A stretch of DNA of 64,000 nt from Peptoniphilus duerdenii ATCC BAA-1640 (GTDB lineage: Bacteria; Bacillota; Clostridia; Tissierellales; Peptoniphilaceae), in NCBI RefSeq assembly GCF_000146345.1, contig NZ_GL397071.1, positions 1,423,591 to 1,487,590 on the forward strand, in the 5' to 3' direction. The translations under genes were made by a program, and so were the position numbers. This document shows positions 10,973-36,502 of this stretch, in pieces; position 1 is the stretch's first letter; each line of letters starts with the position of its first letter. Below the pieces are notes generated by a model, which was not told the DNA's origin, did no database searches, and was given only the letters and a program-made list of their open reading frames with translations.

Positions 10973-11015
10973 AGGAGGGCGAAAGGCTCTCCTTATTTAG
11001 TACAAGGAGGAAATT

Positions 11016-11672: not shown

Positions 11673-11677
11673 ATATC

Positions 11678-11707
11678 GGCAGTCTTCGGACTGCCTTTAT
11701 TTTTTTG
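11678..11707 (+). terminator. Terminator after SSB-like gene
   Basis: GGCAGTC-TTCG-GACTGCC is a perfect UUCG-type tetraloop hairpin followed by a T-rich run. The same hairpin ends the duplicate gene at 16568. Confidence 0.9.
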
Positions 11708-11798
11708 TAAATTTGCAGTATTTACTCATATAAATAAGTTTTAAATGCTCTAAGATAAATACATAAGAAAATAAGTCTTATTGATATGAGGTTTATAA

Positions 11799-12293: not shown

Positions 12294-12299
12294 GCACTT

Positions 12300-12527
12300 A
12301 TGTCTCTTATGACACTTAACTATAAACCATTATGGATACAGTTAGCAAAAAAAGGACTAAAGAAAACAGATGTAATAGCTATGGCAGGACTTACAACAAA
12401 TGTTATGGCACAAATGGGCAAGGATAAACCAATAACAATGAAAAACATAGAAAAGATATGTAAAGCTCTAAAATGTACGCCTAATGATATATTTAGTTTT
12501 GAAAATACATTTGAAAGTGAGATTTAA
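12300..12527 (+). CDS. XRE/Cro-type HTH regulator fused after ABC relic
   Basis: The 75 residues match small Cro/C1-like regulators: N-Y-K-P-L-W-I-Q-L-A-K-K-G-L-K-K-T-D, a helix-turn-helix with M-A-G-L-T-T-N-V-M-A-Q-M-G-K, and I-C-K-A-L-K-C-T-P-N-D-I-F at the end. ATG codons at 12300 and 12309 are possible starts, but no clear ribosome site is left because the upstream DNA is ABC transporter sequence. The natural start and promoter may be lost, so expression is doubtful. Confidence 0.6.
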   Translation: MSLMTLNYKPLWIQLAKKGLKKTDVIAMAGLTTNVMAQMGKDKPITMKNIEKICKALKCTPNDIFSFENTFESEI

Positions 12528-12573
12528 AATCAACAGAGATATATTAAAAATACAAAAAATATTATTTTAAATG

Positions 12574-12612
12574 GTCAAAACACTTGACTATTTTTTAAAT
12601 CTATTATATACT
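12574..12612 (+). promoter_or_regulatory. Promoter and operator of the BlaI-like regulator
   Basis: TTGACT (12584-12589) and TATACT (12607-12612) are 17 bases apart. The -35 overlaps an inverted repeat GTCAA-aacac-TTGAC (12574-12588), and a further GTCAA half-site follows the -10. A repressor bound here would block transcription, which fits autoregulation by the BlaI-type product. Confidence 0.7.
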
Positions 12613-12685
12613 CAAGGCGAAGATAGTCAAAGTTACAAAAATAAAAAAATAAATGAAACTGCAATTTACATAGGAGGTAAGATAG

Positions 12686-13108
12686 TTGGAATTTTCAGAT
12701 GGTGAACTACTAGTAATGGAAGAGTTGTGGAAAGGTGATATATTAGATGAAAATGGAGAAATTCAAGCCTTAGCCTTATCAAAAATATTAATGGAAAGGC
12801 ACAATATAAGCAAAACATCTTGCTACACATTTTTTGGAAGATTAGTAGAAAAAGGGGCGATAGCTAGAAGATATCCTAAATATACAATTAGAGTACTTGT
12901 ATCAAGAGAAGATGCTCTTTTGAATAAGCAAAAAGAAGCCTTTCATAAACTTTTTAAGGGATCGCTTTTAAATATTTGCAAAACGTTTTTACAAAACGAG
13001 GAAGTCACAAAAGAAGAAATAGAAGAAATGAAAAAATTAATAGCAAGCTTTGACGAAGAGGAGAAAGAAGACCAAGAGGAAGCTAAGAATGACACTAAGT
13101 CTAACTAG
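12686..13108 (+). CDS. BlaI/MecI/CopY family repressor
   Basis: The 140-residue protein has the family's N-terminal winged helix (about residues 5-75, with L-L-V-M-E-E-L-W-K-G-D and S-C-Y-T-F-F-G-R-L-V-E-K-G), then a dimerisation helix and a very acidic tail. Such repressors are released by proteolysis through an M56 membrane protease. The start is a TTG after AGGAGG. The gene overlaps the BlaR1-like gene by 20 bases. No beta-lactamase or PBP gene is near, so the regulated target is probably something else. Confidence 0.8.
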   Translation: MEFSDGELLVMEELWKGDILDENGEIQALALSKILMERHNISKTSCYTFFGRLVEKGAIARRYPKYTIRVLVSREDALLNKQKEAFHKLFKGSLLNICKTFLQNEEVTKEEIEEMKKLIASFDEEEKEDQEEAKNDTKSN

Positions 13109-14462
13109 TGTTCTTATACTCGAAAAATCTATAAAAAGTCTTTTCTTGTTAGCTATAATTTTCTTAGTTAGACCAATCTTAAATAAAAAAGCCTTTAGGT
13201 CAGCAAGCCTTATTTTGTGGGTAGTCTTATTAATCTATTTAATAAGTCCCTATGAACTTGAAATCGGAATAGAAAGTGTAAAGAACAATAGTATCCTATC
13301 ATATTTGATAGCTTTAACAAATCTTTTTAATTCTTGCTTATGCTGGTTAATAAATAAACTAGGCTATATATTTTTTAAACTAAACCGACTAATAGGTTCG
13401 ATTTTGATTTTTACTTACCTAGGAATAAAAATTTATAAATTCCATAAAGTTATGAAAGGCTCAGCCCTAACTGAAAACAGCCTGTGCAAGGAAAAAATAA
13501 GGGAATTTGGATTGAAAAGAAAAGTAGAGATTTATATCAATAACAATTTAAAAACTCCCCTTACCTTTGGAATCTTAAAACCTAGGATAATCTTACAAGA
13601 TCATATCCTAGCTGATAAAAAATTGCTAGACCATGTTTTGATCCATGAACTAATGCATATAAAGAAATTTCATATCCTACTCAACCACCTGGTAAATATA
13701 TTAGCCTGCCTATATTGGTTCAATCCACTCTTGTGGTTAAGCTTAAAATACCTAGACCAGGACATTGAAATAAATTGCGATAAGCTAGTGGTTCAACAAT
13801 TAGGCGACACAATAAAAAATAGAAAAGAATATTGCATGTCAATGCTAAAGTTATTAGAAATAGGAAGTAATACAAATAATTTAGTTTTAAAATTAAACCC
13901 AAATAAAGAAAGGATACTTATTATGAAACAATGGAAGAAGAAACTTACAGGATTGGTAGTATTTATATCGACATTTACATTTTGTTTGCCAGTATTTGCT
14001 AATGTGGCTGATCTAAATCAAAATAGGATTGATACAAAAGGTGAAATAGTTACTAATATTAACTCGGAATTTGGAGATAGAGTTCAAATAATAAGTGACG
14101 AAGAGTATCAAAAGTTAGAATTAGGAGAAGTATCGAGGACAGGTCTTAGAGCAGCAAATGTTGATGAGAATATAAGATTAAAAAGATTTGATAAGATAGA
14201 CTATGAATTTAACATGGATACCTGGACAGGTCCAGTTCATGATGGTTTTACAGTTAGATTAAAAGATATGTCTTGCTCAGGTGGAATTAAATATCAGGTT
14301 ATTATTGAAGAAGATGGAAAAATTATATATAACAAATTTTTTTCTTCAGACTCAATATTAAAGGTTAAGGCTAATAGAGGAAGTAGATATGTTGTTACGA
14401 TTGATAATGAATCAAATAAAACATTATCAGGAAAGGTAAAGATAAACTCATATGTAAGATAG
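13089..14462 (+). CDS. BlaR1/MecR1-like M56 membrane metalloprotease
   Basis: The 457-residue protein has N-terminal membrane segments, a cytoplasmic zinc protease domain with H-E-L-M-H (HExxH, His186) and the downstream E-I-N-C-D-K motif, then another membrane helix near residue 285. The C-terminal 150 residues are outside the cell and short; the penicillin-binding sensor domain of true BlaR1 is absent, so it senses another signal. It would cleave or inactivate the BlaI-like repressor encoded upstream. The ATG at 13089 overlaps the repressor gene and follows GAGGA. Confidence 0.8.
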   Translation: MTLSLTSVLILEKSIKSLFLLAIIFLVRPILNKKAFRSASLILWVVLLIYLISPYELEIGIESVKNNSILSYLIALTNLFNSCLCWLINKLGYIFFKLNRLIGSILIFTYLGIKIYKFHKVMKGSALTENSLCKEKIREFGLKRKVEIYINNNLKTPLTFGILKPRIILQDHILADKKLLDHVLIHELMHIKKFHILLNHLVNILACLYWFNPLLWLSLKYLDQDIEINCDKLVVQQLGDTIKNRKEYCMSMLKLLEIGSNTNNLVLKLNPNKERILIMKQWKKKLTGLVVFISTFTFCLPVFANVADLNQNRIDTKGEIVTNINSEFGDRVQIISDEEYQKLELGEVSRTGLRAANVDENIRLKRFDKIDYEFNMDTWTGPVHDGFTVRLKDMSCSGGIKYQVIIEEDGKIIYNKFFSSDSILKVKANRGSRYVVTIDNESNKTLSGKVKINSYVR

Positions 14463-14630
14463 ATAGGAGGTGAAATAATGGATTTAAATCCTTTGAGATA
14501 TAGTAATGGCGATTAGTTTAGATGCTATATTCTATAATATAGCTAGAAACAACAGTTGGAAAAATAGATAATATTTGATCTTAATGTCAAATATATTGAG
14601 GTCAGACAAAATTATATGAGGAGGTTAGAA

Positions 14631-15539
14631 ATGAAGAGAAGATTTACTCTATTAATAGCCATGGTGATGCTGTTAACAGCAATGGCAACAAATGTATTTG
14701 CTTCATCAGATCCAAATATTTATATTCATAATCAAATTGTAAAAACGGATGTAGTTCCATTTATTAAAAATGAAAGGACTATGGTTCCTTTGAGGATAAT
14801 TTCAGAAAATCTCGGGTACAATGTTCAATGGAATCAGAAAAAACAAGAAGTAAAAGTATCAGACAGAAATTTAGAAGTAAAGCTATATATTGGGAAGAAA
14901 GAAATAATTAACAATAATCATAAAGAAGTCCTCGATGTTGCTCCCCTAATTAAAAACGACAGAACTTTCGTACCATTACGATGTATTGCAGAAGCTTTTA
15001 ATCAAGTTGTAATCTGGGATCAAAAGGCAAGAAATGTTCATATTACTAGGGAAAAGGATATACCTAGTAACAAAAACGATTATATTGGACGGTTTGTATT
15101 AATTAATAGTATAGATGTATCTAGCTCAAAAGGTGATAAAAAATCTCCAGAGAGTTTAAGAATAGGTGATGTTGGTTTAATTCTTAAAAGTGAAGGGGAT
15201 TATTTATACATTGATCTAATAAAACCCCAAGGAGAAGCAACTGAAGATTGGTCTTTTGCCAAAGGATATGTTTTGAAGAAAGATTGTATTTTAAATCCAA
15301 GACCTAATGAGCTTGATTTGATTTCTAATGTATGTAGATTAAAAAATGGACAAATTAAAGTCCAAGATTCTATAAACGGAGAAACCTACGAGGTAGACGG
15401 AAATAGATTTGCAAACATTAAGAGAAAAGAAAAGAACCAACTATTAATAGAAATGCCTGGTGGTGCAAATAGCGCATGGGTTTCAAAGAACGATGTTGAT
15501 TTTGGTTTAGAGTACTTCACAGGAAATCTTAATAATTAA
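14631..15539 (+). CDS. Secreted stalk-domain (copper amine oxidase N-like) protein
   Basis: A signal peptide (F-T-L-L-I-A-M-V-M-L-L-T-A-M-A-T-N-V-F-A) is followed by two repeats of the stalk domain, recognised by V-P-F-I-K-N-E-R-T-M-V-P-L-R and A-P-L-I-K-N-D-R-T-F-V-P-L-R. The domain is common in exported proteins of Firmicutes and is thought to position other domains at the wall. The C-terminal 150 residues are unassigned. The ATG at 14631 is six bases after GAGGAGG; the ATG at 14616 lies before it. It follows the BlaI/BlaR1-like pair and could be their target. Confidence 0.75.
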   Translation: MKRRFTLLIAMVMLLTAMATNVFASSDPNIYIHNQIVKTDVVPFIKNERTMVPLRIISENLGYNVQWNQKKQEVKVSDRNLEVKLYIGKKEIINNNHKEVLDVAPLIKNDRTFVPLRCIAEAFNQVVIWDQKARNVHITREKDIPSNKNDYIGRFVLINSIDVSSSKGDKKSPESLRIGDVGLILKSEGDYLYIDLIKPQGEATEDWSFAKGYVLKKDCILNPRPNELDLISNVCRLKNGQIKVQDSINGETYEVDGNRFANIKRKEKNQLLIEMPGGANSAWVSKNDVDFGLEYFTGNLNN

Positions 15540-15604
15540 TTTATTTATGGCAAGAGATTTTTGTGAGCGAAATCTAAATACGTTCAAAAGATATTGAGAG
15601 GAAA

Positions 15605-15633
15605 AGCATCTAGAAAATTCTGGGTGCTTTTTT
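15605..15633 (+). terminator. Intrinsic terminator
   Basis: The arms AGCATCTAGA and TCTGGGTGCT pair with two G-U pairs and are followed by six T. It may end the stalk-protein transcript and lies 28 bases before the tape-measure relic. Confidence 0.6.
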
Positions 15634-15660
15634 GATGCCTAAAATTAAGGAGGTGAGATA

Positions 15661-15894
15661 TTGGCAAATAGAATAAAAGGGATAACTGTTGAGATTGGTG
15701 GGGACACTAGCAAATTACAAACGGCTCTAAAACATGTTAATACGGAGATAAAACATACTCAATCAGAACTGCGTGATGTTAACAAACTTCTTAAACTTGA
15801 TCCTGGCAATACTGAACTTATCTCACAAAAGCATAAGCTATTAGTACAGACCATAGAAGAACAATTAAAAAGAAAGAAGCAAAAAGAAATATAA
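15661..15894 (+). pseudogene. Phage tail tape-measure protein N-terminal relic
   Basis: The frame starts at a TTG after AAGGAGGTGA and encodes I-K-G-I-T-V-E-I-G-G-D-T-S-K-L-Q and L-R-D-V-N-K-L-L-K-L-D-P-G-N-T-E-L, the characteristic start of phage tail tape-measure proteins. It stops after 77 residues, whereas full proteins reach many hundreds. No other phage structural gene is nearby, so it is a prophage scrap captured in the ICE. Confidence 0.75.
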
Positions 15895-15956
15895 AATCAT
15901 CATAGAAACATAAATGATATTTCAAAAGACATAAAATTTTAATAATGAAACTTTGA

Positions 15957-15987
15957 AAGGGATAGCAAAAATGTTATCTCTTTTTTT
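15957..15987 (+). terminator. Terminator ahead of truncated DUF3847 copy
   Basis: The arms GGGATAGC and GTTATCTC pair with G-U and are followed by seven T. The T-run, spacer and ribosome site look like those in front of the first DUF3847 gene at the window start. Confidence 0.6.
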
Positions 15988-16008
15988 ATTACAATAAAGG
16001 AAATAAGT

Positions 16009-16113
16009 ATGAAAAAATTAGAACAAATAAGACAAGAGTCAAAAGATATAAAAGATAAAATTGACGATACAGAAGAAAGATTAAGGCAACTAAAAAACCA
16101 AGAAAAAAAATGA
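16009..16113 (+). pseudogene. Truncated second DUF3847 gene
   Basis: The 34 codons are nearly identical in sequence to the start of the gene at 41-331 (M-K-K-L-E-Q-I-R-Q-E-S-K). Homology then breaks inside a run of A, where the sequence switches to a copy of the end of the SNF2 gene (compare 16111-16165 with 10960-11014). This marks a deletion joining two ICE segments. Confidence 0.8.
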
Positions 16114-16166
16114 CAAGAGAGGTAGAGGAGGGCGAAAGGCTCTCCTTATTTAGTACAAGGAGGAAA

Positions 16167-16562
16167 TTGGGAAATATAGCTGGAAAATTAGAAAATCTTG
16201 AAAGAGAAAATGCTAATGGAGAAAAGTTCAAGGTAAGTAACTTTTCTCTTGTTTCTAAAGATGATGATGGAAATAAAGTTTATACTAATTGCTCAGCCTA
16301 TGGAGATAAGACAAAAGATTTAGAGAACCTTAAACAAGGTGATTTTGTTAAAATATTTGGTCAAGTAAAAACAAGCATTGATAACAACGGAAAGGAACAT
16401 AAAAACGTTCGTATTTTGTCGTCTAAGCTCTTAAAATCAAAAGAACAAGTAAAGAGTCAAGATAAAGATAAAAAGTCCATATTAGGGCAAATAAAAAGCT
16501 TTAAGACAGATGACAAAGCTAAGTCAAATAAGAAAGACCATAGCAAAGGAGCAGAGAGATAA
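16167..16562 (+). pseudogene. N-terminally truncated duplicate of SSB-like gene
   Basis: The sequence is a close copy of the OB-fold part of the gene at 11016-11672 and ends with the same tail and terminator; the first 88 residues are deleted. A TTG at 16167 lies three bases after the retained AAGGAGG, so a 131-residue OB-fold-only protein could perhaps be made. The tail keeps K-K-S-I-L-G-Q-I-K-S-F-K. Together with 10960-11707 it forms a direct repeat bracketing about 4.4 kb. Confidence 0.7.
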
Positions 16563-16567
16563 ATATC

Positions 16568-16597
16568 GGCAGTCTTCGGACTGCCTTTATTTTTTTT
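16568..16597 (+). terminator. Terminator after duplicate SSB-like gene
   Basis: This is the same GGCAGTC-TTCG-GACTGCC tetraloop hairpin and T-run as at 11678-11707. Confidence 0.9.
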
Positions 16598-16805
16598 GCT
16601 ATATTTAAACAGATTGTATAATGACGTCATAAGTCGACTTAGGAAAATGTTGAAGATATTATTTTGTTAGTTCATGATTAGGATATCTGGATATATTTAA
16701 ATCAAGAAATCTTGATGTTATATAACATATAATGTCATAAGTAGATGATTATATAGAGGCATCAATAGTCAAAATAAGAATACTTAGAAAAATACAATTA
16801 AGCTA

Positions 16806-16862
16806 TTGACGCCTAATACTATACGACATATAATATAGGCAAGGATACTATATGACATATAG
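16806..16862 (+). promoter_or_regulatory. PadR-operon promoter with two operator palindromes
   Basis: TTGACG (16806-16811) and TATAAT (16829-16834) are 17 bases apart. CTATACGACATATAA (16819-16833) covers the spacer and -10, and the perfect palindrome CTATATGACATATAG (16848-16862) follows 29 bases on, centre to centre. Both share the core CTATAyGACATATA, the usual layout for autoregulation by a PadR dimer. The rest of 16599-16805 has no gene; it holds palindromes ATGACGTCAT (16621-16630) and TAAGTCGACTTA (16630-16641). Confidence 0.75.
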
Positions 16863-16893
16863 CATAATAAGTTTAAAAGTGAGGTGATTGGGA

Positions 16894-17217
16894 TTGTTTG
16901 AAATAGATACTCGAGTTTTGGAGCTATGTGTTTTAATAGCAATCGATAAGGAAGATACCTATGGGTACAAGTTGACCCAAGAGTTATCAGATGAATTTAA
17001 TATTTCAGAATCTACCGTTTATCCAGTATTAAGAAGGTTGCAAAAATCCAATTATCTTGCAACATATAATAAATCCATAAATGGAAGAAGTAGGCGATAT
17101 TACACTTTAACGGATGATGGAAAAAAAGAATTGGAGAAGCAATTAGAAAGCTGGTCAAAGTATAAAAATACAGTAGATGATTTTATTTTGAAAAGTAAGG
17201 AGGGTAGAGATGATTAG
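16894..17217 (+). CDS. PadR family transcriptional regulator
   Basis: The protein (107 residues) shows the PadR winged helix: L-C-V-L-I-A-I-D-K-E-D-T-Y-G-Y, S-E-S-T-V-Y-P-V-L-R-R-L and S-R-R-Y-Y-T-L-T-D-D-G-K, then a short C-terminal dimerisation helix. It belongs to the short PadR subfamily (PadR-s2). The TTG at 16894 is well spaced from GAGGTG; a TTG at 16888 is too close. It heads an operon with DUF1700, a lipoprotein and an ABC transporter and probably represses it. Confidence 0.85.
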   Translation: MFEIDTRVLELCVLIAIDKEDTYGYKLTQELSDEFNISESTVYPVLRRLQKSNYLATYNKSINGRSRRYYTLTDDGKKELEKQLESWSKYKNTVDDFILKSKEGRDD

Positions 17218-17746
17218 GAAATCTTTTTTACAAACTTTGGATAAAAAATTAAAGAAATTTGATAACAGAGAAAGAGAAGAGGCAATTCTATTTTACTCAG
17301 AGTTATTTGATGAAATGAATTTAGCGGATGAAGATCAAATACCAAATCAATATGATGTAAATAAAATTGCTAGGGAATTAAATGTATCTATGAAAATAGA
17401 TAACTGGGAAGATGAAAACAGTTCAATTAAGAAAATTTTTAAAGGGATACCAATAATTACCTTAAGTATTTTATCACTACCAACAATTTTGGTAGGATTA
17501 ATAGTATTCTTGGCTTTATTGTTTACAGCTATTTTTTTAATAGCTGCTACTTATTTCACGGTAATCTTATTGGTTATTGGAACAGTAAAAAATTTCTTTT
17601 TAGGTGGATTCTCGATAGCAAGTTTATGTTTGCTACTGGGAGTAATACTTTTAGTTATTTCAGCAACAGGGATATTGATTGAAATAATTAACCTAATTGG
17701 GAAATTAATAATAAAAAGAATCAAGGAAAAAAACATCAATAGTTAG
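17210..17746 (+). CDS. DUF1700 membrane protein
   Basis: The 178-residue protein has a cytoplasmic N-terminus containing the family pattern F-L-Q-T-L-D-K-K-L and E-A-I-L-F-Y-S-E-L-F-D-E-M, followed by three or four membrane helices from about residue 75 to 170. DUF1700 proteins are almost always paired with a PadR regulator and are thought to take part in membrane-stress sensing. It overlaps the padR gene by eight bases. Confidence 0.85.
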   Translation: MIRKSFLQTLDKKLKKFDNREREEAILFYSELFDEMNLADEDQIPNQYDVNKIARELNVSMKIDNWEDENSSIKKIFKGIPIITLSILSLPTILVGLIVFLALLFTAIFLIAATYFTVILLVIGTVKNFFLGGFSIASLCLLLGVILLVISATGILIEIINLIGKLIIKRIKEKNINS

Positions 17747-17760
17747 AAAGGGGTTTTAAT

Positions 17761-18546
17761 ATGAAAAAGAAATTATGGATCACCTTGGCATTAGGTATAG
17801 TTTTAACTCTTGTCGGATGCAATATGGGAGGAAAGCTAAATCTAAAATTATCTGAAGATGAATATTATATTGACAAAAATGGCTTAGATCCTGTAGTGGC
17901 ATCTAGTTATACAGGAACAAAAAAATTTGAAAAAATCAAAGAATTACAAATTGATACAAATATTACAAATATAGAGTTAATATCCAATACAAGTGAAAAT
18001 TACAATGTAGAGATTGAAAATTTAAAATCAGACTATGTGAGTCCTATAGAGGCCGAAGAAAAAAATGGCGTAATTAGTATCTCTAACAAGCTATTAAAAC
18101 AAAAACCAATAGGAATACTAGACGAAGAATCATCTAAATTGAAATTGGTAATTGAAGGACCTATCGAAAACATAGATAAGATTTCTATAAATGATAGAGT
18201 TGGTTCAATAAGTATTAAGAATGCAACGCTTAAGAATGTAGGCATTAAGGGTAATGCAATCGATGTTGATCTTACTGATTCAACGATTACCAAATTAAAT
18301 CTTGATTTAGAATTATCAGATTTAAGTATGAGTTCTACAAATATTAGTGATAGTAAACTAAATTTAAATAAATCTCGAATCTTTGGAGAAAAAAATGAGT
18401 TTAAAGGAGATAATATATTGAATTTCTCTATTGTTGAAGGCGAACTTGGTTTAAAAAATTATGATGAGATATTTAATCAAAATACGCCTAATAAAATAAA
18501 ATTAGAAGGTAAACTAAATAGATTTGAATTTATCAATGAGAGGTGA
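17761..18546 (+). CDS. Lipoprotein, DUF4097-like beta-repeat
   Basis: A lipoprotein signal peptide ends in L-T-L-V-G-C-N. The mature part consists of short repeating beta strands (for example I-S-I-K-N-A-T-L-K-N-V-G-I and L-D-L-E-L-S-D-L-S-M), like the DUF4097 beta-solenoid family that accompanies PadR/DUF1700 genes. It would sit on the outer face of the membrane. Its role is unknown but probably linked to the adjacent ABC transporter. Confidence 0.75.
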   Translation: MKKKLWITLALGIVLTLVGCNMGGKLNLKLSEDEYYIDKNGLDPVVASSYTGTKKFEKIKELQIDTNITNIELISNTSENYNVEIENLKSDYVSPIEAEEKNGVISISNKLLKQKPIGILDEESSKLKLVIEGPIENIDKISINDRVGSISIKNATLKNVGIKGNAIDVDLTDSTITKLNLDLELSDLSMSSTNISDSKLNLNKSRIFGEKNEFKGDNILNFSIVEGELGLKNYDEIFNQNTPNKIKLEGKLNRFEFINER

Positions 18547-18553
18547 AAAGATC

Positions 18554-19288
18554 ATGAAATATATTAAAGCTGAGATTTTTAGAATTTTTCATACAAGAAA
18601 TTATCTTAAATTTATCTTTGCTATTACATTGATATTACTAGGAAGTATGATTTATTCATCCATAGACTCTAATTCGGGAGAATATTTTGAATCTATGGAA
18701 ACATTTTTAAAGATTGTTAGTATTATAATTTCAATTTTTTTCAGTGTAACTATTTTTAAGAAAAAAGATATAAAAGTAGAGCTACTGTCAATGGGGCTTA
18801 GTAGAAAACGCATATTTGTATGTGATCTTATTACTTTACAAATTTTTACTCTTTTCTCTATAGTAATAATGGGAGGATTGATTTTATTATTCAGTTTATT
18901 AAAAAATCTAGTAGGAGCTGATTACATTGGAAGATCATATATCGGATTTGTCTATTTCTTGATTAGAATGATAGTATTGATGATAAATGTAAACAATGGT
19001 GTCATGGGATTAACTTATTTATTGAACAATGTGGCTCTAGGCATTGCAACTTCCTTTGTTATAATTCCATCAGTTTTTCAAATCGGAATGTATATGACTG
19101 AAGGAAAAATCTACGATGTATTTAATAACCTTCTTCTAATACAACCATTCAAGCTATTAGATTTAGGATTGGCAACAGAGCAAATTGGAAATAGCTTTAT
19201 GAAGACAGTTGGTATTAGTTTTGTTTTTGTCTTTGTAATTTATCTAATAAGCGGATATGTAAGATTTAGTAGAAAAGAAATCAATTGA
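18554..19288 (+). CDS. ABC transporter permease
   Basis: The 245-residue protein has six hydrophobic segments beginning with F-I-F-A-I-T-L-I-L-L-G and resembles ABC-2 type permeases of the BcrB/NatB kind. The ATG at 18554 follows GAGGTG; an earlier in-frame ATG lies inside the preceding gene. It precedes its ATPase gene by eight bases and would form a lipid- or peptide-antibiotic exporter. Confidence 0.75.
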   Translation: MKYIKAEIFRIFHTRNYLKFIFAITLILLGSMIYSSIDSNSGEYFESMETFLKIVSIIISIFFSVTIFKKKDIKVELLSMGLSRKRIFVCDLITLQIFTLFSIVIMGGLILLFSLLKNLVGADYIGRSYIGFVYFLIRMIVLMINVNNGVMGLTYLLNNVALGIATSFVIIPSVFQIGMYMTEGKIYDVFNNLLLIQPFKLLDLGLATEQIGNSFMKTVGISFVFVFVIYLISGYVRFSRKEIN

Positions 19289-19296
19289 GGTGAATT

Positions 19297-20187
19297 ATGG
19301 ATGCTATAGTAAAAACAGATAATCTTTCAAAAAAATATAATGACAAATACGCTTTAAATAACTGTTCACTAACAGTGAATAGAGGAGATATCTATGGTAT
19401 AATTGGTAAAAATGGTGCTGGAAAATCAACACTGATGAAAATTCTCTGTGGAATTACCGAGAAAACTCAAGGTGATTATGAATTGTTTGGAGGGAAGAAT
19501 CTTTCAGAAGGAAGAAAGAAAATTGGAGCAATTTTGGAAAATCCAACCTTGTTTGGTAATTTGACAGGTAAAGATAATTTGAGATATTTTGCCATTCAAA
19601 AAGGCATTACTAATGAGAATACTATAAAGAAATCTTTAGAATTAGTTGGATTAAGCTACGATGATGGTAAGGTAGTTAAAAACTATTCAGTTGGTATGAA
19701 GCAGAGATTAGCTTTATCTGTATGTCTTTTGGGGAAACCGGAACTTCTAATTTTAGATGAGCCTATTAATGGAATAGATCCTACCGGGATAGTAGAAATA
19801 AGGGGCTTATTGAAAAGACTAAATGAAGAAAATGGAGTGACTATTATTATTTCTAGTCATGTACTTCCGGAGTTGGAAAATTTGGTAAATAAAATAGCGA
19901 TTATTAATGACGGTCAAGTGATAGATAAATTAAGTTTGGATGATTTGCATAGCAGAGATTTTAATTATATAGAAATCTACACTTCAGATATTAATAGAAC
20001 TGTAGAGATATTAAAGGAACAAGAAATCTCCAAAATTGATATTCAAAATGGCAGGATTCGAGTTAAAGAAAATATAGAAGACAGTTCAGAGGTTGTTAGT
20101 CTATTAGTTAATAATGGCATAAAAGTCTATGAAATTTTTAGAAAAGAAGAAACATTGGAAGAATTTTATTTAAAGATGATTAGCTAA
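19297..20187 (+). CDS. ABC transporter ATPase, BcrA-like
   Basis: The 296-residue protein has Walker A I-I-G-K-N-G-A-G-K-S-T, signature Y-S-V-G-M-K-Q-R-L and Walker B L-L-I-L-D-E-P-I-N-G, followed by a C-terminal domain typical of drug-exporting BcrA-like ATPases. With the permease upstream it forms a PadR-controlled exporter, likely for an antimicrobial peptide or membrane toxin. The substrate is not determined by the sequence. Confidence 0.85.
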   Translation: MDAIVKTDNLSKKYNDKYALNNCSLTVNRGDIYGIIGKNGAGKSTLMKILCGITEKTQGDYELFGGKNLSEGRKKIGAILENPTLFGNLTGKDNLRYFAIQKGITNENTIKKSLELVGLSYDDGKVVKNYSVGMKQRLALSVCLLGKPELLILDEPINGIDPTGIVEIRGLLKRLNEENGVTIIISSHVLPELENLVNKIAIINDGQVIDKLSLDDLHSRDFNYIEIYTSDINRTVEILKEQEISKIDIQNGRIRVKENIEDSSEVVSLLVNNGIKVYEIFRKEETLEEFYLKMIS

Positions 20188-20253
20188 TTTGTTAATGATT
20201 CAAATTAAAATAACCAGTAAAGCTTCTATGTCATTTAAATATATAGGGAAGAG

Positions 20254-20279
20254 ACAGCTCCACATCAGGAGCTGTTTTT
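20254..20279 (+). terminator. Terminator of the PadR operon
   Basis: Perfect arms ACAGCTCC and GGAGCTGT surround a six-base loop and are followed by a T-rich run. Confidence 0.85.
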
Positions 20280-20296
20280 GCTTTGTGTAATCATGA

Positions 20297-20506
<210 letters not shown>

Positions 20507-20757
20507 TGGAAAATACCTTGTGGAAATATATTTATAGTAAGAATGATAGGGGTGTGTAGACAGAATAGATATTTGGAGTTGTGTGGACAGGATGGCTTAA
20601 AACATAAAGTAAAAGATAATAGATACTAATAAGGGATATAGTCTGAGAAAAACATTAGAAATGCAATATATTTGATAAAGTGGTAAAATATAATTAGTAG
20701 AATGCTTATTATGTTATCAATTTTTTTAAATTGCGTAATAAAAAGGGGTGTGTAGAG

Positions 20758-21609
20758 TTGAATATAGTTGAACTAAAAGATATTGGTAAAAATTATGGGA
20801 AGAAAGTTGCCTTAAAATCGGTGAACTTACAAATACCAGAAGGGATTTATGGTATCTTGGGAAACAATGGAGCTGGTAAAACAACTCTATTACGTATGAT
20901 AACCAACGTAATGAAACCTTCGACAGGTGAGATTCTTTGGAATGACAATAATATTATGTCCATTCAAGATGCGTATAGGGATGAAATAGGATACGTTCCG
21001 CAAGAGTTTTCAGTTCATCCTGCCTATACAGCAAAAGATTTTTTATCTTACATAGGAGCGCTTAAAGGATTAAGAAATCAGGAATTAAAAACGAGAATTG
21101 AGGAGGTCTTGGATTTTGTTAACTTGTCTGATGTGGCAGATAAAAAGGTGTATAGTTTTTCAGGGGGAATGAAGCGTCGAGTTGGAATTGCACAAGCGAT
21201 ATTAAATGATCCGAGCATTCTAGTTTTAGATGAGCCAACAGCAGGATTAGATCCAAAAGAAAGAAATAGGTTTTCCAACATTATCAGTAAGATGAGTAGT
21301 GAAAAAATTATTTTATTTTCTACACATATTATCTCCGATATTGATGCTATTACCTCGAAAGTAATTCTTGTAAACAACGGTGCAGTGAGTGGCATTAAAA
21401 AGGTTTCTGAATTGGTAGATTCTATTCATAATATATACGAGATTACAGTTAATACAGATACCTTTGAAGAATTAAGAAAAGATATTTTTATTATACGTAT
21501 TAAAGTAATTGATGGGGGGATGATTGTACGCTATCATGGGCCAAAAATTGAAGGGGCTACTGAAGTCAATAGTAATTTAGAGGATTATTTTATTGTAAAA
21601 GGAGATTGA
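20758..21609 (+). CDS. ABC transporter ATPase
   Basis: The 283-residue ATPase has Walker A I-L-G-N-N-G-A-G-K-T-T, a Q-loop in Y-V-P-Q-E-F, signature F-S-G-G-M-K-R-R-V and Walker B I-L-V-L-D-E-P-T-A-G. It starts at a TTG seven bases after AAGGGGTG. Two large membrane proteins follow in the same operon, and together they form an ABC-2 type exporter. Similar three-gene sets are found with peptide antibiotics and their immunity; no substrate is evident here. Confidence 0.8.
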   Translation: MNIVELKDIGKNYGKKVALKSVNLQIPEGIYGILGNNGAGKTTLLRMITNVMKPSTGEILWNDNNIMSIQDAYRDEIGYVPQEFSVHPAYTAKDFLSYIGALKGLRNQELKTRIEEVLDFVNLSDVADKKVYSFSGGMKRRVGIAQAILNDPSILVLDEPTAGLDPKERNRFSNIISKMSSEKIILFSTHIISDIDAITSKVILVNNGAVSGIKKVSELVDSIHNIYEITVNTDTFEELRKDIFIIRIKVIDGGMIVRYHGPKIEGATEVNSNLEDYFIVKGD

Positions 21610-21610
21610 T

Positions 21611-22819
21611 ATGAAAGGATTAACAAGGTTAGAGCTTAAAAAAATCATACATAGCAATAGTGCCATATTGCTTGTTATTTTTTTTCTTATCATACTATCC
21701 TCCATTGTCTCCATATCAAGTGTCGATATTATAGACAACAATGGTGAATTTTATAGTGGTATAGGTGGATGGAAAATATTATCAGAACAAGCCAAAGTTT
21801 CGGATGGATATGTCACCAAAGAATACATGCTTAAAGAAAAAGAACGTTATGATAGAAGTAATGGGAAACCATATATCGAAGGAACTCGAACAGAGGATAG
21901 GAAACTTGGATTAAAATTAGTCTATCCACAAGATTTTCTATTCATGACGTTAAATGCTCCCTATGGACAAGATATTTTAACGACCTATATAGACATGAAT
22001 TTGACAGAACAAGAAATGGAAGATTTTTATGTTAATTGGCCAAAGACAGTTATTGAAGTGCTTAAAAGGACAGAAACGCCGTATTCTGACCAAGAGTATA
22101 AATTAATATATTCCAAAGCGAAGGCGGTCGAAGAACCTTTCTATTATGCGTATAATATGGGGTGGCAGGCGTTTTCGAATTCTTTAGAACAGACTTGGTG
22201 GGGTTTTGCGATTTTTTTAAGTGTCCTCTTTGCATCTGCATTTCAAAAAAATTCAACGGTAGGCATGAGTGAAATTACGCTTTATAATCGAGAATCAAGA
22301 AAGAAATTATATGGTCATAAAATATTCGCTCAATTGCTATTTGGAGCAAGTATATACTTAATGTATATTTTATCAATTCTTCTAATTGTAGGTGTTATTT
22401 ATGGACTTCACGGTTGGAATTCGTCCATACAATTTATTGATTCAATGAATATCTTTTCTCTCAAAGTATGGCAAGGGATATTATTTAAGATAGCAGTAGG
22501 GTTACTAGCTACGTTTATTTATGTATATTTTATATCCTTTTTATCTTTGTTATTAAAAAACGATAAAGGAACAATTGTAGTATTTACTTTATTAGAAGTG
22601 TTGTTAACATATAAATCTAATTGGCTGGCTAACACTTCTGAAGTAGTATTCAATCTACTTCCGCAAAATTTTATTCGTGGGATATTGAGTACGAATAAAC
22701 TTTTTTTTATAGGAGATCAGATAGTTCCGTATGGGTTTGTAACAATAATGGTTGGCTGTCTATACATTCTTATTCTCGAATTTGCTAGTAAATGGTTATT
22801 GAGAAATTATTATATTTAA
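21611..22819 (+). CDS. ABC transporter permease subunit
   Basis: The 402-residue protein has one N-terminal membrane helix (L-L-V-I-F-F-L-I-I-L-S), a large extracellular region of about 150 residues, and five or six further helices from about residue 195. This one-plus-five layout is typical of ABC-2 permeases with a big external domain. It begins one base after the ATPase stop and is followed by a second, diverged permease. Confidence 0.7.
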   Translation: MKGLTRLELKKIIHSNSAILLVIFFLIILSSIVSISSVDIIDNNGEFYSGIGGWKILSEQAKVSDGYVTKEYMLKEKERYDRSNGKPYIEGTRTEDRKLGLKLVYPQDFLFMTLNAPYGQDILTTYIDMNLTEQEMEDFYVNWPKTVIEVLKRTETPYSDQEYKLIYSKAKAVEEPFYYAYNMGWQAFSNSLEQTWWGFAIFLSVLFASAFQKNSTVGMSEITLYNRESRKKLYGHKIFAQLLFGASIYLMYILSILLIVGVIYGLHGWNSSIQFIDSMNIFSLKVWQGILFKIAVGLLATFIYVYFISFLSLLLKNDKGTIVVFTLLEVLLTYKSNWLANTSEVVFNLLPQNFIRGILSTNKLFFIGDQIVPYGFVTIMVGCLYILILEFASKWLLRNYYI

Positions 22820-22832
22820 GGAGGGATCAGGA

Positions 22833-23918
22833 ATGAAAAAGTTAAATACACTCCACAATGAAAACTTAAAAACGCTCTTAAGAGAAAAAATTGTTTTTGT
22901 TTACGGAATAGCCATTATCTTCATCATCCTATCCGGCCTTTTCAGTGTCTCAAAAGAATATTTATATCAAGAAAATATGGAAATTAGTGATGGAACAGAA
23001 TGGAGATTTTTTATTGAAGATACTAAATTGTCTAATGAATCAATTTCTACAATGATAAAAAAATATATAGATGCTGATGTCTCCGAACGAAATACGATTG
23101 ATGTTCAAGATCAGTTTATTGTAGAGAAGATAAAAAGGGTATATGGGGAAAATTGGAATACTCTTGAAAATGCCAATAAAAAGTTTTTTGGTGAAAGGGC
23201 GAAACTTATTGAATCACAAGATTCAGGAAAAACACCTACTTTACAATCATTACAAGATGGTTATGTCGAAGGTTGGAAAGTTATCGATACGCTTTTCCCA
23301 CAAACACTTTATGTAATATGGCTATTTATTATGCTCATGTCAATCCCTATTTACCATAAAAGTAAAAGATCGGGATTTCATGAAATAAATATCAGCACAA
23401 AATATGGAAAAGACCAAATTAATAAAATCAATTGGATTAATGCCTATGAACTTTCAACTGGTATGTTCATCTTTGGGATCGTACTTCTTTACTTATTTGT
23501 TTGGAGTAGGTATAGCCTAAATGGATACCATCTAAATATTCAAACAATACCTAAATATTTTTTAGCAACGACATCCTGGAGCATATATAAAACATTTATA
23601 ATGCAAATCCTTATTGCTTATATAGAAACACTTGTCATAGTAAATATTAGTTTAATTATCAGTATTCTAAGTAAAAGCGTCAAAGTGGGTTATGGTCTAA
23701 TGGTTTTATTGGGTGCATGGCAGTTTACTTTGTTGAAATTATTTAGAAATAAGAGTCATATGATTTTCGTTAACTACTTACCTTCTGAAATTTTTAAAAT
23801 TGAAAATTTCATCTATGTGGGGATAAAACTGGTGTTATTTCTCGTCTTATTATTTTTGATAAGTGAGTTGATCCTTTATGGATTTATTAGAAAAGTTAAA
23901 GAGCATGAATATGTATAG
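22833..23918 (+). CDS. Second ABC transporter permease subunit
   Basis: The 361-residue protein repeats the layout of its neighbour: one N-terminal helix, an external domain of about 110 residues, then five helices from about residue 155 to the end. It is probably the heterodimer partner of the 21611-22819 product. AAGGAGG precedes the ATG. The operon ends at a strong hairpin shared with the converging gene. Confidence 0.7.
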   Translation: MKKLNTLHNENLKTLLREKIVFVYGIAIIFIILSGLFSVSKEYLYQENMEISDGTEWRFFIEDTKLSNESISTMIKKYIDADVSERNTIDVQDQFIVEKIKRVYGENWNTLENANKKFFGERAKLIESQDSGKTPTLQSLQDGYVEGWKVIDTLFPQTLYVIWLFIMLMSIPIYHKSKRSGFHEINISTKYGKDQINKINWINAYELSTGMFIFGIVLLYLFVWSRYSLNGYHLNIQTIPKYFLATTSWSIYKTFIMQILIAYIETLVIVNISLIISILSKSVKVGYGLMVLLGAWQFTLLKLFRNKSHMIFVNYLPSEIFKIENFIYVGIKLVLFLVLLFLISELILYGFIRKVKEHEYV

Positions 23919-24006
23919 TACTTTTTTAATGTTTCAGAGGGCTGAGCATAAAAAACTATTCAATACTCATGAAGGATCGACAAAGTTATAGATAAGTGGA
24001 ACAAAA

Positions 24007-24040
24007 AAAGTAACGGGAGTATATGATGTCCCGTTACTTT
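24007..24040. terminator. Bidirectional terminator
   Basis: Perfect 12-bp arms AAAGTAACGGGA and TCCCGTTACTTT are flanked by A and T runs. It separates the ABC operon from a converging minus-strand gene. Confidence 0.85.
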
Positions 24041-24074
24041 AGATAATCTTATATTTTAAAAATTAAAAAACAAT

Positions 24075-24689
24075 CTATTTCTTAAATAAATCATCTTTAA
24101 TCGAATAGTAATTCCCAACAAATAAAACTTCCCAAACTCCATCAGTATTTTTTTGCATAAGGACATCATCATAATTGCCATCAAGTCTTCGTGCTTCCAT
24201 AACAATCAAATCAGATTTGTCGACATTAGCTATTAACTCGCTATTAGCTCGTGGTTCTCCATAAATTAATTTTTCAAATCTAGGGTCTACTGAAGTGCCT
24301 ACAGTCATTTCTTCAGAGAACTCATCATATTTTGGATAAAGATCAGGATGCTCATCAATGTACTTGCTAAGCCCATTCATTATAGATACAAAATCTTCTT
24401 TTGATCTTTTTGGAGCTAATCCACTTCCAGCGACAAAAGAACCAGCAATTCCATCTTCTTTATATGTCTTTTCATTTTTCTTGCGTTGTTGAGAAATCTT
24501 TTGATCTATTGCAATATCTTCTTTACTTCTATCGAATTCATTCAAGTTATCATTAGACGTTAATTTAGAATTATTCATATTAGACTCAGTAGATTTGATA
24601 TTTTTATAACCTGAAAATTTATTAATAGAAAATAATAGAAGTATAATTACAACGATAAAAACTGGTAAAATAAGATATTTTCTTTTCAT
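24075..24689 (-). CDS. Membrane-anchored hypothetical protein
   Basis: The 204-residue protein has an N-terminal anchor (Y-L-I-L-P-V-F-I-V-V-I-I-L-L-L-F), a Ser/Asn-rich linker and an external domain with G-S-F-V-A-G-S-G-L-A-P-K and D-G-V-W-E-V-L-F-V-G-N-Y-Y. I do not recognise the family. The start at 24689 is preceded by GGAGG on the minus strand; a start further upstream would put charged residues before the signal anchor. It lies alone between the ABC trio and the MOBP genes. Confidence 0.6.
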   Translation of the reverse strand: MKRKYLILPVFIVVIILLLFSINKFSGYKNIKSTESNMNNSKLTSNDNLNEFDRSKEDIAIDQKISQQRKKNEKTYKEDGIAGSFVAGSGLAPKRSKEDFVSIMNGLSKYIDEHPDLYPKYDEFSEEMTVGTSVDPRFEKLIYGEPRANSELIANVDKSDLIVMEARRLDGNYDDVLMQKNTDGVWEVLFVGNYYSIKDDLFKK

Positions 24690-24749
24690 TATTTTCTCCC
24701 CACCTCCAATTACTACATATATCATACTCCTTTATTCTATAAATAGCAA

Positions 24750-24848
24750 TTGAATAGACCAGAAACAAAACAATCAGGTCCTGGATGTCGATGCTCTTGT
24801 AACGGTAGTACAAATTACGCCTACAATGACGATTCAGCTAGAAATTAA
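24750..24848 (+). CDS. Cys-rich mini-ORF, possible RiPP precursor remnant
   Basis: From a TTG the frame encodes 32 residues containing G-P-G-C-R-C-S-C-N-G-S-T and ending Y-N-D-D-S-A-R-N. Three cysteines in C-x-C-x-C with Gly/Ser/Asn neighbours look like the core of a thioether-type (sactipeptide or ranthipeptide) precursor. There is no ribosome site before the TTG, so the true N-terminal leader may have been lost. No radical-SAM gene is in the window. The rest of 24690-25121 shows no other gene. Confidence 0.3.
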   Translation: MNRPETKQSGPGCRCSCNGSTNYAYNDDSARN

Positions 24849-25121
24849 CTGAGGAAAAATCTTTAAAAAAGTGCACAAATATATAGTGTGGTATCTAAGT
24901 ATTAGTGCATAATCAGTCGTAAAAGTAAGTGGACTTCCTATAAATTTTTAATCATGCCACTTATTCTTGTAAACTTTGTAAATATAATTATTGGGATATT
25001 ATTTACAGGTAGGTTCTATAAAACGCACAGTCAAAATAGTCTTGTAGATAGAATAAGAAGTCTAGAATAAAAATTTGTAAATAATTTTAAAAAAGCTATA
25101 AGTTTATCCGCTTATAGCTTT

Positions 25122-26453
25122 TTATCTCTCCACTTCCTTTCCATAATAATTTTCATAGTTTTTCCTATACTGAACAAGTTCAGAAAATTGTTCTTTATTC
25201 AAAGAATACTCTTGCATAAGGGTGTTCTTTTTTTCTTGCAATTCATCGAGTTTCGTTAGTATTTCTTTTGTATTTGGTAGTTTTTTATAGTTTTCTAAGA
25301 TTTCTTTAGCGGCTATTTTATAGACGGAAAGTTCACTATAATATTCTTCTTCAAATTGCCTATCTTCAGGATTTTTTTTGTGGTATTTATAGATTTCATG
25401 ATACTTATTTATAGTATTTATATTTTCCATATCTTGGGATAAACTCTTCATCTCAGTTTCAATTTTCTTTATTTTATCTAACAAATCTTGTCTATCATCA
25501 GCAGATTTTTTGATTAGATCATCGAGTTGTGTAATTGAATTAATTCCCTGTTCTCTAAGCTTAATTATTGAATCAGCCATTGTTTTGATATTATGTTTTC
25601 TTGCCCAAACTTCATAACCTTTAGAGGACTTAGCCTTTGTATTAGTAGATATATTAATGACATTTCCTATTCTTTTTTTAATAGGATTAGCTTTGTTCAT
25701 AATAGCTAAATCTATTCTTTCTTTGATTTTTTCTTCAGTATAATCTTCTCCGATAGTCTTAGCTCTTGTAAATCTTTGCTTATCTTTATGACGAAAAGCA
25801 ATGTGTTTACCAAACTTAATTTCATAATCAATAGATTTCATATTTTCTAAAAACTCTTCCCATGAGTTAGACCTATTAATCATTCTATCTATATCAAATT
25901 GTAGTTTAGACTTCCAAGAATTTCCTTTCTTGTTTTGGTCATATTCGTACCAAGATTTACCTGCAGTTTTATATTTTCTTTTGTAAGCTTCATAATATTC
26001 ATCAATGACTGAAAGCTTATTTTCTTTACATAATTCGTCACTTTGATACCTAATTTTATGGTAAGATTTTTTATTAGATTGGTAGCATTTGCCAGTTTTG
26101 TAATTAACATTATTAAAAATAATATGGTTATGGATATGCCCTCTATCTACATGAGTTGCAAGAACAAATTCATAATCTTCTTTTAAAATTTTTTTACATA
26201 ATTCCATGCCAATTTCGTGAGCTTTTATAGGATCAACCTCTCCTGGTAGAAAAGATTGAATTAAATGTCTAGCTAAAACTGTACCTTTAGTATCATTGTC
26301 TTCTCGTGTTTTCATAAATTGAATATGGGCAGTAGATGGATAACATTTAAATGAAGATACCAAGACTTTTTCATCAGTTTTTTCACTCTTAGTTATATAG
26401 TCTATTGCCAAATTTAGAGTTGATTTTATAGGATGTATTTTTGTAATTGCCAT
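25122..26453 (-). CDS. MOBP-type relaxase
   Basis: The protein (443 residues) belongs to the relaxase/mobilization nuclease family (Pfam 03432). The N-terminal domain contains A-I-D-Y-I-T with the probable catalytic tyrosine near residue 20, the R-H-L-I-Q-S-F segment, and the metal-binding H-V-D-R-G-H-I-H-N-H-I-I-F (about residues 105-120). The C-terminal half is a coiled coil. It starts directly after mobC and is in the opposite orientation to the surrounding ICE genes. Unlike the first relaxase it lacks the K-x-S-I-[IL] C-terminal motif. Confidence 0.9.
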   Translation of the reverse strand: MAITKIHPIKSTLNLAIDYITKSEKTDEKVLVSSFKCYPSTAHIQFMKTREDNDTKGTVLARHLIQSFLPGEVDPIKAHEIGMELCKKILKEDYEFVLATHVDRGHIHNHIIFNNVNYKTGKCYQSNKKSYHKIRYQSDELCKENKLSVIDEYYEAYKRKYKTAGKSWYEYDQNKKGNSWKSKLQFDIDRMINRSNSWEEFLENMKSIDYEIKFGKHIAFRHKDKQRFTRAKTIGEDYTEEKIKERIDLAIMNKANPIKKRIGNVINISTNTKAKSSKGYEVWARKHNIKTMADSIIKLREQGINSITQLDDLIKKSADDRQDLLDKIKKIETEMKSLSQDMENINTINKYHEIYKYHKKNPEDRQFEEEYYSELSVYKIAAKEILENYKKLPNTKEILTKLDELQEKKNTLMQEYSLNKEQFSELVQYRKNYENYYGKEVER

Positions 26454-26454
26454 A

Positions 26455-26811
26455 TTAGTCACCAGAACTTTCTTTTGATTTATTAAGAAGTAGGGAATGG
26501 ATCTGCCATATTTCTCTTGATAATTTTTCTATCTGCTTATTCATTGATTCAATTTCATTTTTGTAAATAACACCAGTTGTATTAGTAGCTTTTGCAATCT
26601 GGTTTATGTTATTTGTTACATTTGAAAGTAGCCATTGTAGGTTTCTAAATGGTTCTAGGTCTACAACATAAATCTCTTTTTCCAATACGCATTTTCTAAG
26701 AAAGTGAGACATAGTTTTACAATTAGCAAGTTTCATTTTCTTTTCAAAAACTTCTTTTTCTTCATCTGTTAAATATATTTTTAGTTGATTATTTCTTTTT
26801 CTATTATCCAT
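26455..26811 (-). CDS. mobC: MobC-type relaxosome accessory protein
   Basis: The 118-residue protein is a ribbon-helix-helix DNA-binding protein: K-I-Y-L-T-D-E-E-K-E-V-F, then M-S-H-F-L-R-K-C-V-L and the family segment N-I-N-Q-I-A-K-A-T-N. MobC proteins help the relaxase open oriT. The start at 26811 follows AGGAGATAT on the minus strand. It is translationally linked to the relaxase gene. Confidence 0.85.
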   Translation of the reverse strand: MDNRKRNNQLKIYLTDEEKEVFEKKMKLANCKTMSHFLRKCVLEKEIYVVDLEPFRNLQWLLSNVTNNINQIAKATNTTGVIYKNEIESMNKQIEKLSREIWQIHSLLLNKSKESSGD

Positions 26812-26843
26812 AGTATATCTCCTTATCATAAATTATTGGGGTC

Positions 26844-26938
26844 TTAGGGTTCTCCCTAACAAGGTAAAATTGATAAAAAAAGAAGCAGTCCATAAAGGTT
26901 CTGCTTCATCAATTTTTCGTAAGTGGGTACTCACTTAC
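26844..26938. other. Putative oriT upstream of mobC
   Basis: Upstream of mobC lie TTAGGG-ttct-CCCTAA (26844-26859), a terminator-like hairpin around AGAAGCAG and CTGCTTC (26881-26917), and GTAAGTG-ggtact-CACTTAC (26919-26938). Clustered inverted repeats just before mobC are where oriT lies in MOBP elements. The remaining 26939-27060 has no gene. Confidence 0.4.
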
Positions 26939-27060
26939 TGTGCTTGCTATTAAAGTTATAAGCGTTAAGCGTTTATTCAGTTTTATTAATTATACCGCAT
27001 TTAAATAAATTAATTAAGAAGTATACGGTAGAGTAGAGCAAAATTTATAATTTGATTGAT

Positions 27061-36128: not shown

Positions 36129-36502
36129 CTATTTTAAAAGCAATCTAAATAATATTTGAACCTTAACAATTGAATAGACCAAGACAAGACATTAATCATT
36201 TTTGGAGCGTAATAACCTATCCGCCAAGATCTTTCTGCTGAATAATTCGGTAAAACAAGTACTGCTAAGCAAAAAGCAAGGGAAGAAGAAAGGGAGCGAT
36301 AAGTAAGAGTTTGAACATAGGGAGGGATACCCTATTCGCTATGAAGAAAATGAGGATAATGATACTTCTAAGGTTGAAGCCGGCTCATCCTGAACAGAGG
36401 CGGAGGTGAGATTCCTATGTTGCTAATCCAATGCACTTGTCAATGTCAAAAAACTTTAAAAATATTAAAATAAATATTTTAAATATATTATTTGGAGGAT
36501 TT
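36129..36502 (+). other. Non-coding ICE region before excisionase
   Basis: No credible gene is visible in these 374 bases. The base composition is noticeably less AT-rich than the surroundings. ATAGGG and CCCTAT (36317-36335) form a short hairpin. CAATTGAATAGACCA at 36170-36184 occurs again, exactly, at 24748-24762 next to the Cys-rich mini-ORF. Similar sequence precedes xis/int in related ICEs, so it may be a regulatory leader. Confidence 0.4.

Follow-up and report, generated by a model that had tools for sequence, protein, structure and literature searches.

The closest described systems are sactipeptide clusters of the ruminococcin C type. According to the report on RumC2 (PMC6779426), its Cys residues at positions 22, 24, 41 and 45 form two pairs that make two hairpins, a RumC2 fragment 28-63 with the second Cys pair is modified without a leader, and the ruminococcin C cluster contains proteases, exporters and predicted immunity genes as well. 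Two further families of putative sactipeptides are CA_C0660 (NF035954) and Apre_1838 (TIGR04067); in Sarcina sp. JB2 and Anaerococcus prevotii, as in the intact cluster described below, a radical-SAM gene immediately precedes the precursor gene and ABC genes surround it. On A. prevotii pAPRE01 and Sarcina sp. JB2 p2, a radical-SAM protein 32% identical to that of the intact cluster described below is followed by an annotated Apre_1838-family precursor, and in Sarcina the next genes encode an ATPase (39% identical to that of the locus studied here), two permeases and an exporter. Another report (PMC4289311) lists Anaerococcus Apre_1837 among putative sactipeptide radical-SAM genes. The terms CA_C0660, Apre_1838 and RumMC did not occur in the part of the literature covered by our search, which is no proof of absence. 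Protective genes that are retained without a bacteriocin appear in print as orphan bacteriocin immunity genes.

Here, a stretch of 64,000 nucleotides from Peptoniphilus duerdenii ATCC BAA-1640 (the window) was analyzed around a mini-ORF that the initial annotation had likened to a RiPP core. This mini-ORF is almost certainly a dead C-terminal fragment of a ruminococcin-C-like sactipeptide bacteriocin precursor gene, from whose cluster two deletions would have taken the producer machinery while probable self-protection genes stayed. The frame is present as annotated: it begins with TTG at 24750, runs over 32 codons (33 from stop to stop) to a stop codon at 24846-24848, encodes NRPETKQSGPGCRCSCNGSTNYAYNDDSARN after the start and contains GPGCRCSCNG and the C-terminus YNDDSARN. 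Its location after an ABC trio (20758-23918) and an orphan gene on the minus strand was likewise borne out, and the ribosome site described as missing is indeed not visible before the TTG. By contrast, the assertion that C-x-C-x-C is rare by chance did not hold, since six-frame translation of the window yields the motif six times, in two cases within open stretches of just 16 and 12 residues. Nor does codon usage set the mini-ORF apart. Its score is equalled or exceeded by 39% of 1825 overlapping intergenic windows without a stop, 12% of 493 coding windows come out equally low or lower, and reading this DNA in the +1 frame gives a higher score than the mini-ORF frame. The 32-aa peptide matched zero Pfam families and, up to E 10, zero NCBIfam models; it had a single weak match in PHROGs (E 0.17), nine chains in the PDB at E 0.9-6.2 that were antibody chains for the most part, a single 10-residue match in phages (E 6) and no match in plasmids, and the DNA at 24050-25110 was unmatched in plasmids and phages. 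By the window alone the mini-ORF is indistinguishable from chance, and the recurrence of the motif, the neutral codon usage and the lack of a Pfam or NCBIfam family would all suit a chance open frame in intergenic DNA. This reading is nevertheless vanishingly improbable and in our view already refuted by a homologous intact gene that has a start codon, a AAGGAGATG ribosome site and a radical-SAM neighbour; it is because of this homology, and not because of the motif, that the mini-ORF is regarded as more than chance.

When 391 genomes sampled from the class were searched, the intact gene turned up in a genome of another family (G844). G844 matched the mini-ORF peptide with an E value of 2.4e-13 (81% over 31 aa) within a 68-codon open frame, and the remaining 22 matches of that search (21 genomes) had E values of 0.0067 or above; pairwise comparison of the mini-ORF with the G844 precursor gave 1e-17. 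The precursor gene is complete and encodes 62 aa (MLKVRNPYQREIVESEDIAFRAPCMCSTVKQNYTATKQSGPGCQCSCNGSTNYVYNKDSARN), with its ribosome site ahead of an ATG, 38 bp 3' of a SPASM radical-SAM gene. The window codons 24765-24845 and the last 27 residues of the G844 peptide are identical at 24 of 27 positions. The initial annotation had proposed an N-terminally truncated precursor and a search for longer homologues beside radical-SAM enzymes and the same ABC trio; both suggestions proved fruitful, as the 62-aa G844 gene, of which the window retains residues 36-62, has both neighbours, the trio with 98.3% DNA identity. The class of the peptide is deduced from weak profile scores.

The G844 cluster spans about 10 kb and includes the ABC trio and the orphan gene of the window at 98-99% DNA identity. 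With the precursor on the plus strand, the genes run from the ABC ATPase and the two permeases through a 363-aa protein and an ABC exporter of 599 aa to the orphan gene, which lies on the opposite strand; then follow an integrase fragment, a 517-aa radical-SAM enzyme and the precursor. The window aligns with it in three blastn blocks, 20396-23950 (98.3%), 23948-24765 (99.1%) and 24764-24927 (97.0%, with G844 rc26182-26345), between which 2816 and 2914 bp of G844 DNA are absent from the window (junctions J1 and J2, Table 1). The J1 gap takes the protease-like gene except 73 nt and the ABC exporter gene except its last 44 nt; in the resulting fusion ORF, residues 1-23 of the protease-like protein are in frame with the last 14 residues of the exporter, the first of which is altered (Y to H). 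The J2 gap takes the integrase fragment, which carries an rve domain, the radical-SAM maturase, and the start, leader and first CxC of the precursor.

Table 1. Features of the degenerate locus, in window coordinates (rc, coordinates in G844).
Feature	Position	Strand	Basis
ABC transporter ATPase, complete	20758..21609	+	Pfam ABC_tran 1.5e-34; over 849 nt, 0 substitutions to P. raoultii and 12 to G844
ABC permease 1 (402 aa), complete	21611..22819	+	Sarcina sp. JB2: 25% over 380 aa to first permease, 26% to second
ABC permease 2 (361 aa), complete	22833..23918	+	27% over 167 aa to second Sarcina permease
37-aa fusion ORF from J1, second fossil	23878..23991	+	Sequence comparison
Junction J1, about 2.8 kb of G844 cluster absent	23946..23950	.	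blastn blocks stop at G844 rc19633, restart at rc22450
Orphan protein, N-terminal hydrophobic stretch, 204 aa from ATG after GGAGGTGGGGAG	24075..24689	-	In G844 between exporter and integrase fragment
Promoter-like site of orphan gene, TTGCTA-17-TATGAT, just before J2	24721..24749	-	Consensus match only
First five codons of mini-ORF, chimeric, mostly DNA 5' of orphan gene, not precursor	24750..24764	+	Window 23948-24765 aligns to G844 rc22450-23267
Junction J2, about 2.9 kb of G844 cluster absent	24762..24768	.	blastn blocks stop at G844 rc23267, restart at rc26182
Surviving 3' part of sactipeptide-type precursor gene: residues 36-62 of 62 (CxCxC cluster, tail) and stop	24765..24848	+	G844 homology
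Block common to window and Peptoniphilus raoultii KHD4, both gaps included	20394..24927	.	98.7% over 4535 bp

The gaps and the truncated genes are seen directly in this comparison, and we infer that the gaps are deletions. The window state would have arisen by deletion, rather than the G844 state by insertion, because three genes are cut at the junctions and fuller clusters occur elsewhere; a counterpoint is that G844 itself carries an integrase fragment within the second gap. A second shortened copy is present in P. raoultii KHD4 (NZ_FMWM01000002.1), which matched the mini-ORF peptide at 88% identity. Among 199 relatives, 31 genomes had matches at E values up to 10, namely 1e-18 for the window genome, 6e-16 for P. 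raoultii and 0.047 for the next. The four of the weak matches that were inspected were rejected, since two of them (L006, L009) coincide with long genes on the opposite strand and the other two (L003, L004) with long genes read in a different frame. Furthermore, the pattern GPGCxCxCNG was found in 19 stretches of the genome contigs and three of the viral contigs, and of these 22 only the P. raoultii copy and an IMG/VR contig with the same allele (L079 and L092) showed further likeness. The P. raoultii blocks end in G844 at the same places as those of the window at both junctions; J1 is identical letter for letter, and near J2 one base differs (24760). From the same block ends and the identical J1, the two copies most likely derive from one already shortened version. 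Conservation of the mini-ORF in P. raoultii in itself says little, because the copy belongs to a 4.5 kb block at 98.7% identity. The two genomes differ by 13 substitutions in 3981 nt at 20738-24718 and by four in the 99 nt of the mini-ORF (24760, 24790, 24828, 24830), which hit three codons and alter the amino acid in each.

Homology comparisons place the G844 enzyme near the ruminococcin C maturases. It has PF04055 Radical_SAM at 72.5 bits (cut-off 29.5) and PF13186 SPASM at 22.2 bits (cut-off 21.5), and the best of 73 NCBIfam models was NF035951 RumMC (E 2.5e-109); since its 366 bits lie below the curated cut-off of 720, it is considered a relative of RumMC and not a member. The sole two NCBIfam matches of the precursor, at E values up to 0.1, were NF035954 (E 5e-7, 29.6 of 60 bits) and TIGR04067 (E 2.6e-4, 21 of 45 bits), both below the curated cut-offs of these putative sactipeptide families. 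In comparison with ruminococcin C of Ruminococcus gnavus (maturases RumMC1/2), the precursors are 63 aa (RumC) and 62 aa (G844) long and both have a CxC followed by a second Cys cluster at the same spacing: of the G844 Cys residues at 24, 26, 43, 45 and 47, those at 24, 26, 43 and 47 keep the RumC2 spacing and 45 is extra. Unlike ruminococcin C, G844 thus has five Cys residues instead of four, and the window has only the second Cys cluster and no maturase, so the window fragment would correspond to the second RumC2-type hairpin alone. Precursors of the CA_C0660, Apre_1838 or RumC type have a leader and two Cys clusters; G844 has both and an adjacent SPASM radical-SAM maturase, whereas the window frame has neither this arrangement nor such a neighbour, and unlike the CA_C0660 and Apre_1838 relatives the window is without the producer half.

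Only one intact copy of the G844-type cluster was found, and no description of it appeared in the literature covered by our search. The G844 precursor was unmatched in the PDB and, up to E 1, in plasmids; in 113 relatives of G844 it matched, besides itself, one weak hit holding a stop (E 0.005), and in the viral contigs only the shortened IMG/VR copy. Its maturase matched 150 of 198 relatives of G844 at E 1e-20 or better, the best after itself being 29% identical, as well as four loci in the viral contigs (23-29%) and 199 plasmid records, in six of which a single place accounts for at least 80% of the query. Two further Peptoniphilaceae genomes (G014, G040), out of 120 genomes searched besides that of the window, share a near-identical cluster with genes for a radical-SAM enzyme (35% to its G844 counterpart), a precursor, an ATPase, a permease and an exporter; P. 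raoultii was not among the matches of this search and presumably lies outside the sample.

The remaining products of the G844 cluster are less clearly assigned. HLLEH, which we take to be the M16 peptidase pattern, occurs close to the start of the 363-aa protein, but this protein had no Pfam match and nothing better than E 0.3 in the PDB, so that the label protease is a guess. The 599-aa exporter has ABC_tran over the cut-off and a transmembrane-region match below it. With regard to the trio, the initial annotation called it exporter-like; it does belong to the same cluster as the precursor in G844, but it is probably not the exporter of this cluster, which had another exporter gene that the window has lost. 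The presence of a separate exporter, with a trio distinct from it in both G844 and Sarcina sp. JB2 as in bacteriocin self-protection systems, makes a protection system more likely than export. Judged by gene content, the trio and the orphan protein would confer immunity, with the orphan protein as a probable accessory of the trio. The locus thereby resembles orphan bacteriocin immunity genes, but differs from them in that its immunity function is deduced and in that a precursor fossil persists next to the retained genes.

The orphan gene is in keeping with such a protective role. Relatives of the orphan protein (36-38% identity) occur in G060, G090, G083, G040, G032 and G057, in two other genera, which were the best six of 298 genomes after the window's own and P. 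raoultii; five related clusters examined contained none. In all six genomes the relative adjoins two permeases and an ATPase homologous to the trio, and these genes come after those for a probable sensor kinase and a LuxR-type response regulator (L052-L057); in the one compared with Pfam (L052), the response regulator was over the cut-off and the kinase weak (HATPase_c, 16.9 of 26.4 bits). CxCxC is absent from all frames of 20-89 aa with a start codon in these six spans, and the six-gene unit may represent a stand-alone response module against peptides. Against G844, the three trio genes show pS of 0.050, 0.028 and 0.023 and pN of 0.0045, 0.0031 and 0.0035, which indicates purifying selection over that span. 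Between the window and P. raoultii the trio differs by five substitutions in 3138 nt, and the nonsynonymous share is 2.5 of 3 in permease 1 and 3 of 5 in the orphan gene; since these changes are few and in the latter two genes largely nonsynonymous, purifying selection on the trio and orphan gene after the deletions is not demonstrated.

Whether the remnant itself is alive was considered from its substitutions and surroundings. A short working gene, in which translation starting at the TTG still yields the C-terminal hairpin and this acts either without modification or after modification by a different radical-SAM enzyme, could account for the frame being open with all three Cys residues in the window, P. 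raoultii and G844, and would be in line with the leaderless modification of the RumC2 fragment and with three radical-SAM matches to the G844 maturase (27-41% over parts) and two SPASM domains in the window genome. The cognate maturase was not found there, the three matches being 27% over query positions 91-488, 41% over 133-272 and 33% over 130-354; the first is equalled in strength by G001 (29%) and P. raoultii (28%) and is thus probably a common SPASM enzyme. This reading is very unlikely: besides the invisible ribosome site, the TTG start derives from other DNA, 23900-25150 holds no plus-strand promoter-like match (four sites, all minus, vs 7.3 expected in shuffles), and the changes are all nonsynonymous, with three nonsynonymous and no synonymous in 78 nt against P. 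raoultii and four and none against G844. P. raoultii and G844 differ over the remnant by one nonsynonymous and one synonymous change, and the three Cys codons are unchanged. These counts hint at drift of the remnant, the changes being too few to exclude diversifying selection.

Alternatively, the DNA might be a regulatory element or RNA for the minus-strand orphan gene, and not encode a peptide, which would be compatible with the remnant being a fossil. The promoter-like site of the orphan gene touches the TTG, ending where it begins, and the remnant lies directly upstream of the site. A regulatory role is still very unlikely, as different DNA occupies that place in G844, and a structured RNA at the mini-ORF was rejected: no RNA family matched, plus-strand folding did not surpass that of shuffles (z 0.32), and the minus strand gave a weak signal (z -0.91). 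It is exceedingly unlikely that the chimeric 32-aa peptide is made at a low level and, as a free second hairpin in cells with an intact cluster, occupies their receptor, maturase or ABC trio; if it did, the degenerate locus would be that of a resistant non-producer which also interferes with producers.

Returning to the fossil precursor gene, we propose that in G844 the radical-SAM/SPASM enzyme, given its relatedness to RumMC, links cysteines of the 62-aa precursor to backbone carbons, that the protease-like protein might help in leader removal, that the MsbA-type ABC protein would export the product, and that the ATPase and two permeases together with the small membrane-anchored protein would protect the producer. 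Two deletions, in an ancestor from which both the window copy and that of P. raoultii descend, would then have taken the maturase and the front half of the precursor, together with most of the protease-like gene and almost the entire exporter gene. Both the trio and the orphan gene stay complete and nearly unchanged, and the 27 codons that remain are without start, leader, ribosome site and first Cys pair. The present role of the locus is likely self-protection without production, and the mini-ORF itself most likely has no present role. This would be an apparently clean case of a producer turned resistant non-producer, in which two defined gaps took the bacteriocin machinery while the genes for probable protection were spared; two genera, those of the window and of P. 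raoultii, carry the same shortened version, in the window beside a relaxase gene. Moreover, the fossil points to an intact RumC-like cluster that is open to testing and to a candidate protection module, the trio with the orphan gene; in other anaerobes, relatives of this module lie next to a response regulator and have no peptide gene. A fossil of 27 codons could thus be read correctly from sequence.

Another family was considered for the peptide. CLI_3235 precursors (TIGR04065; members in G135 and G148) have a similar-looking core, CxCxC followed by a Gly/Asn/Tyr tail, and a different leader. Four shuffle tests gave P values of 0.051, 0.003, 0.14 and 0.042, so that the similarity of the window peptide exceeds shuffles only in part, and of 17 CxCxC frames from AT-rich loci, some of them chosen for likeness to the query, the four that reached the query score were two further CLI_3235 members, the query itself and the P. 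raoultii copy. This assignment was dropped once G844 was found. At L110 and L113 (G135, G148), several differing CLI_3235-like Cys-rich precursor genes occur within one genome, some of them close together.

Some further observations concern the surroundings of the locus and related clusters. More blocks of the window, at 9605-16637 and 24972-26982, match this region of G844 with 92-98% identity; they include genes for a relaxase and a MobC-like protein and apparently represent a mobile element common to the two families. The stretch 16638-20395 is missing from the corresponding place in G844, where its flanks are adjacent; genes for a PadR regulator, HAAS-like and DUF4097 proteins, a permease and an ATPase lie at 16888-20187. 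On A. prevotii pAPRE01 (L221), a minus frame at 17597-18055 beside the Apre_1838 cluster has its first 39 residues identical to an inner part of the window relaxase (25122-26462), and by this identity would be a mobilisation remnant common with the window. On a Paraclostridium bifermentans plasmid (L223, 11923-13478), a maturase relative is broken into two frames next to a putative bacteriocin precursor, which might reflect either a further decaying cluster or an error in sequencing. Near-identical RumC-like clusters of two Peptoniphilaceae genera (L232, L233) lie 3' of an amidase gene (Amidase_2, CW_7); the adjoining genes are phage-like in size and order, the one tested (632 aa) having no Pfam match, and the clusters are perhaps carried by a prophage. 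Finally, the sole Rfam match of the window at the gathering threshold was a pemK RNA (RF02913) at 36356-36420 with 55.6 bits.
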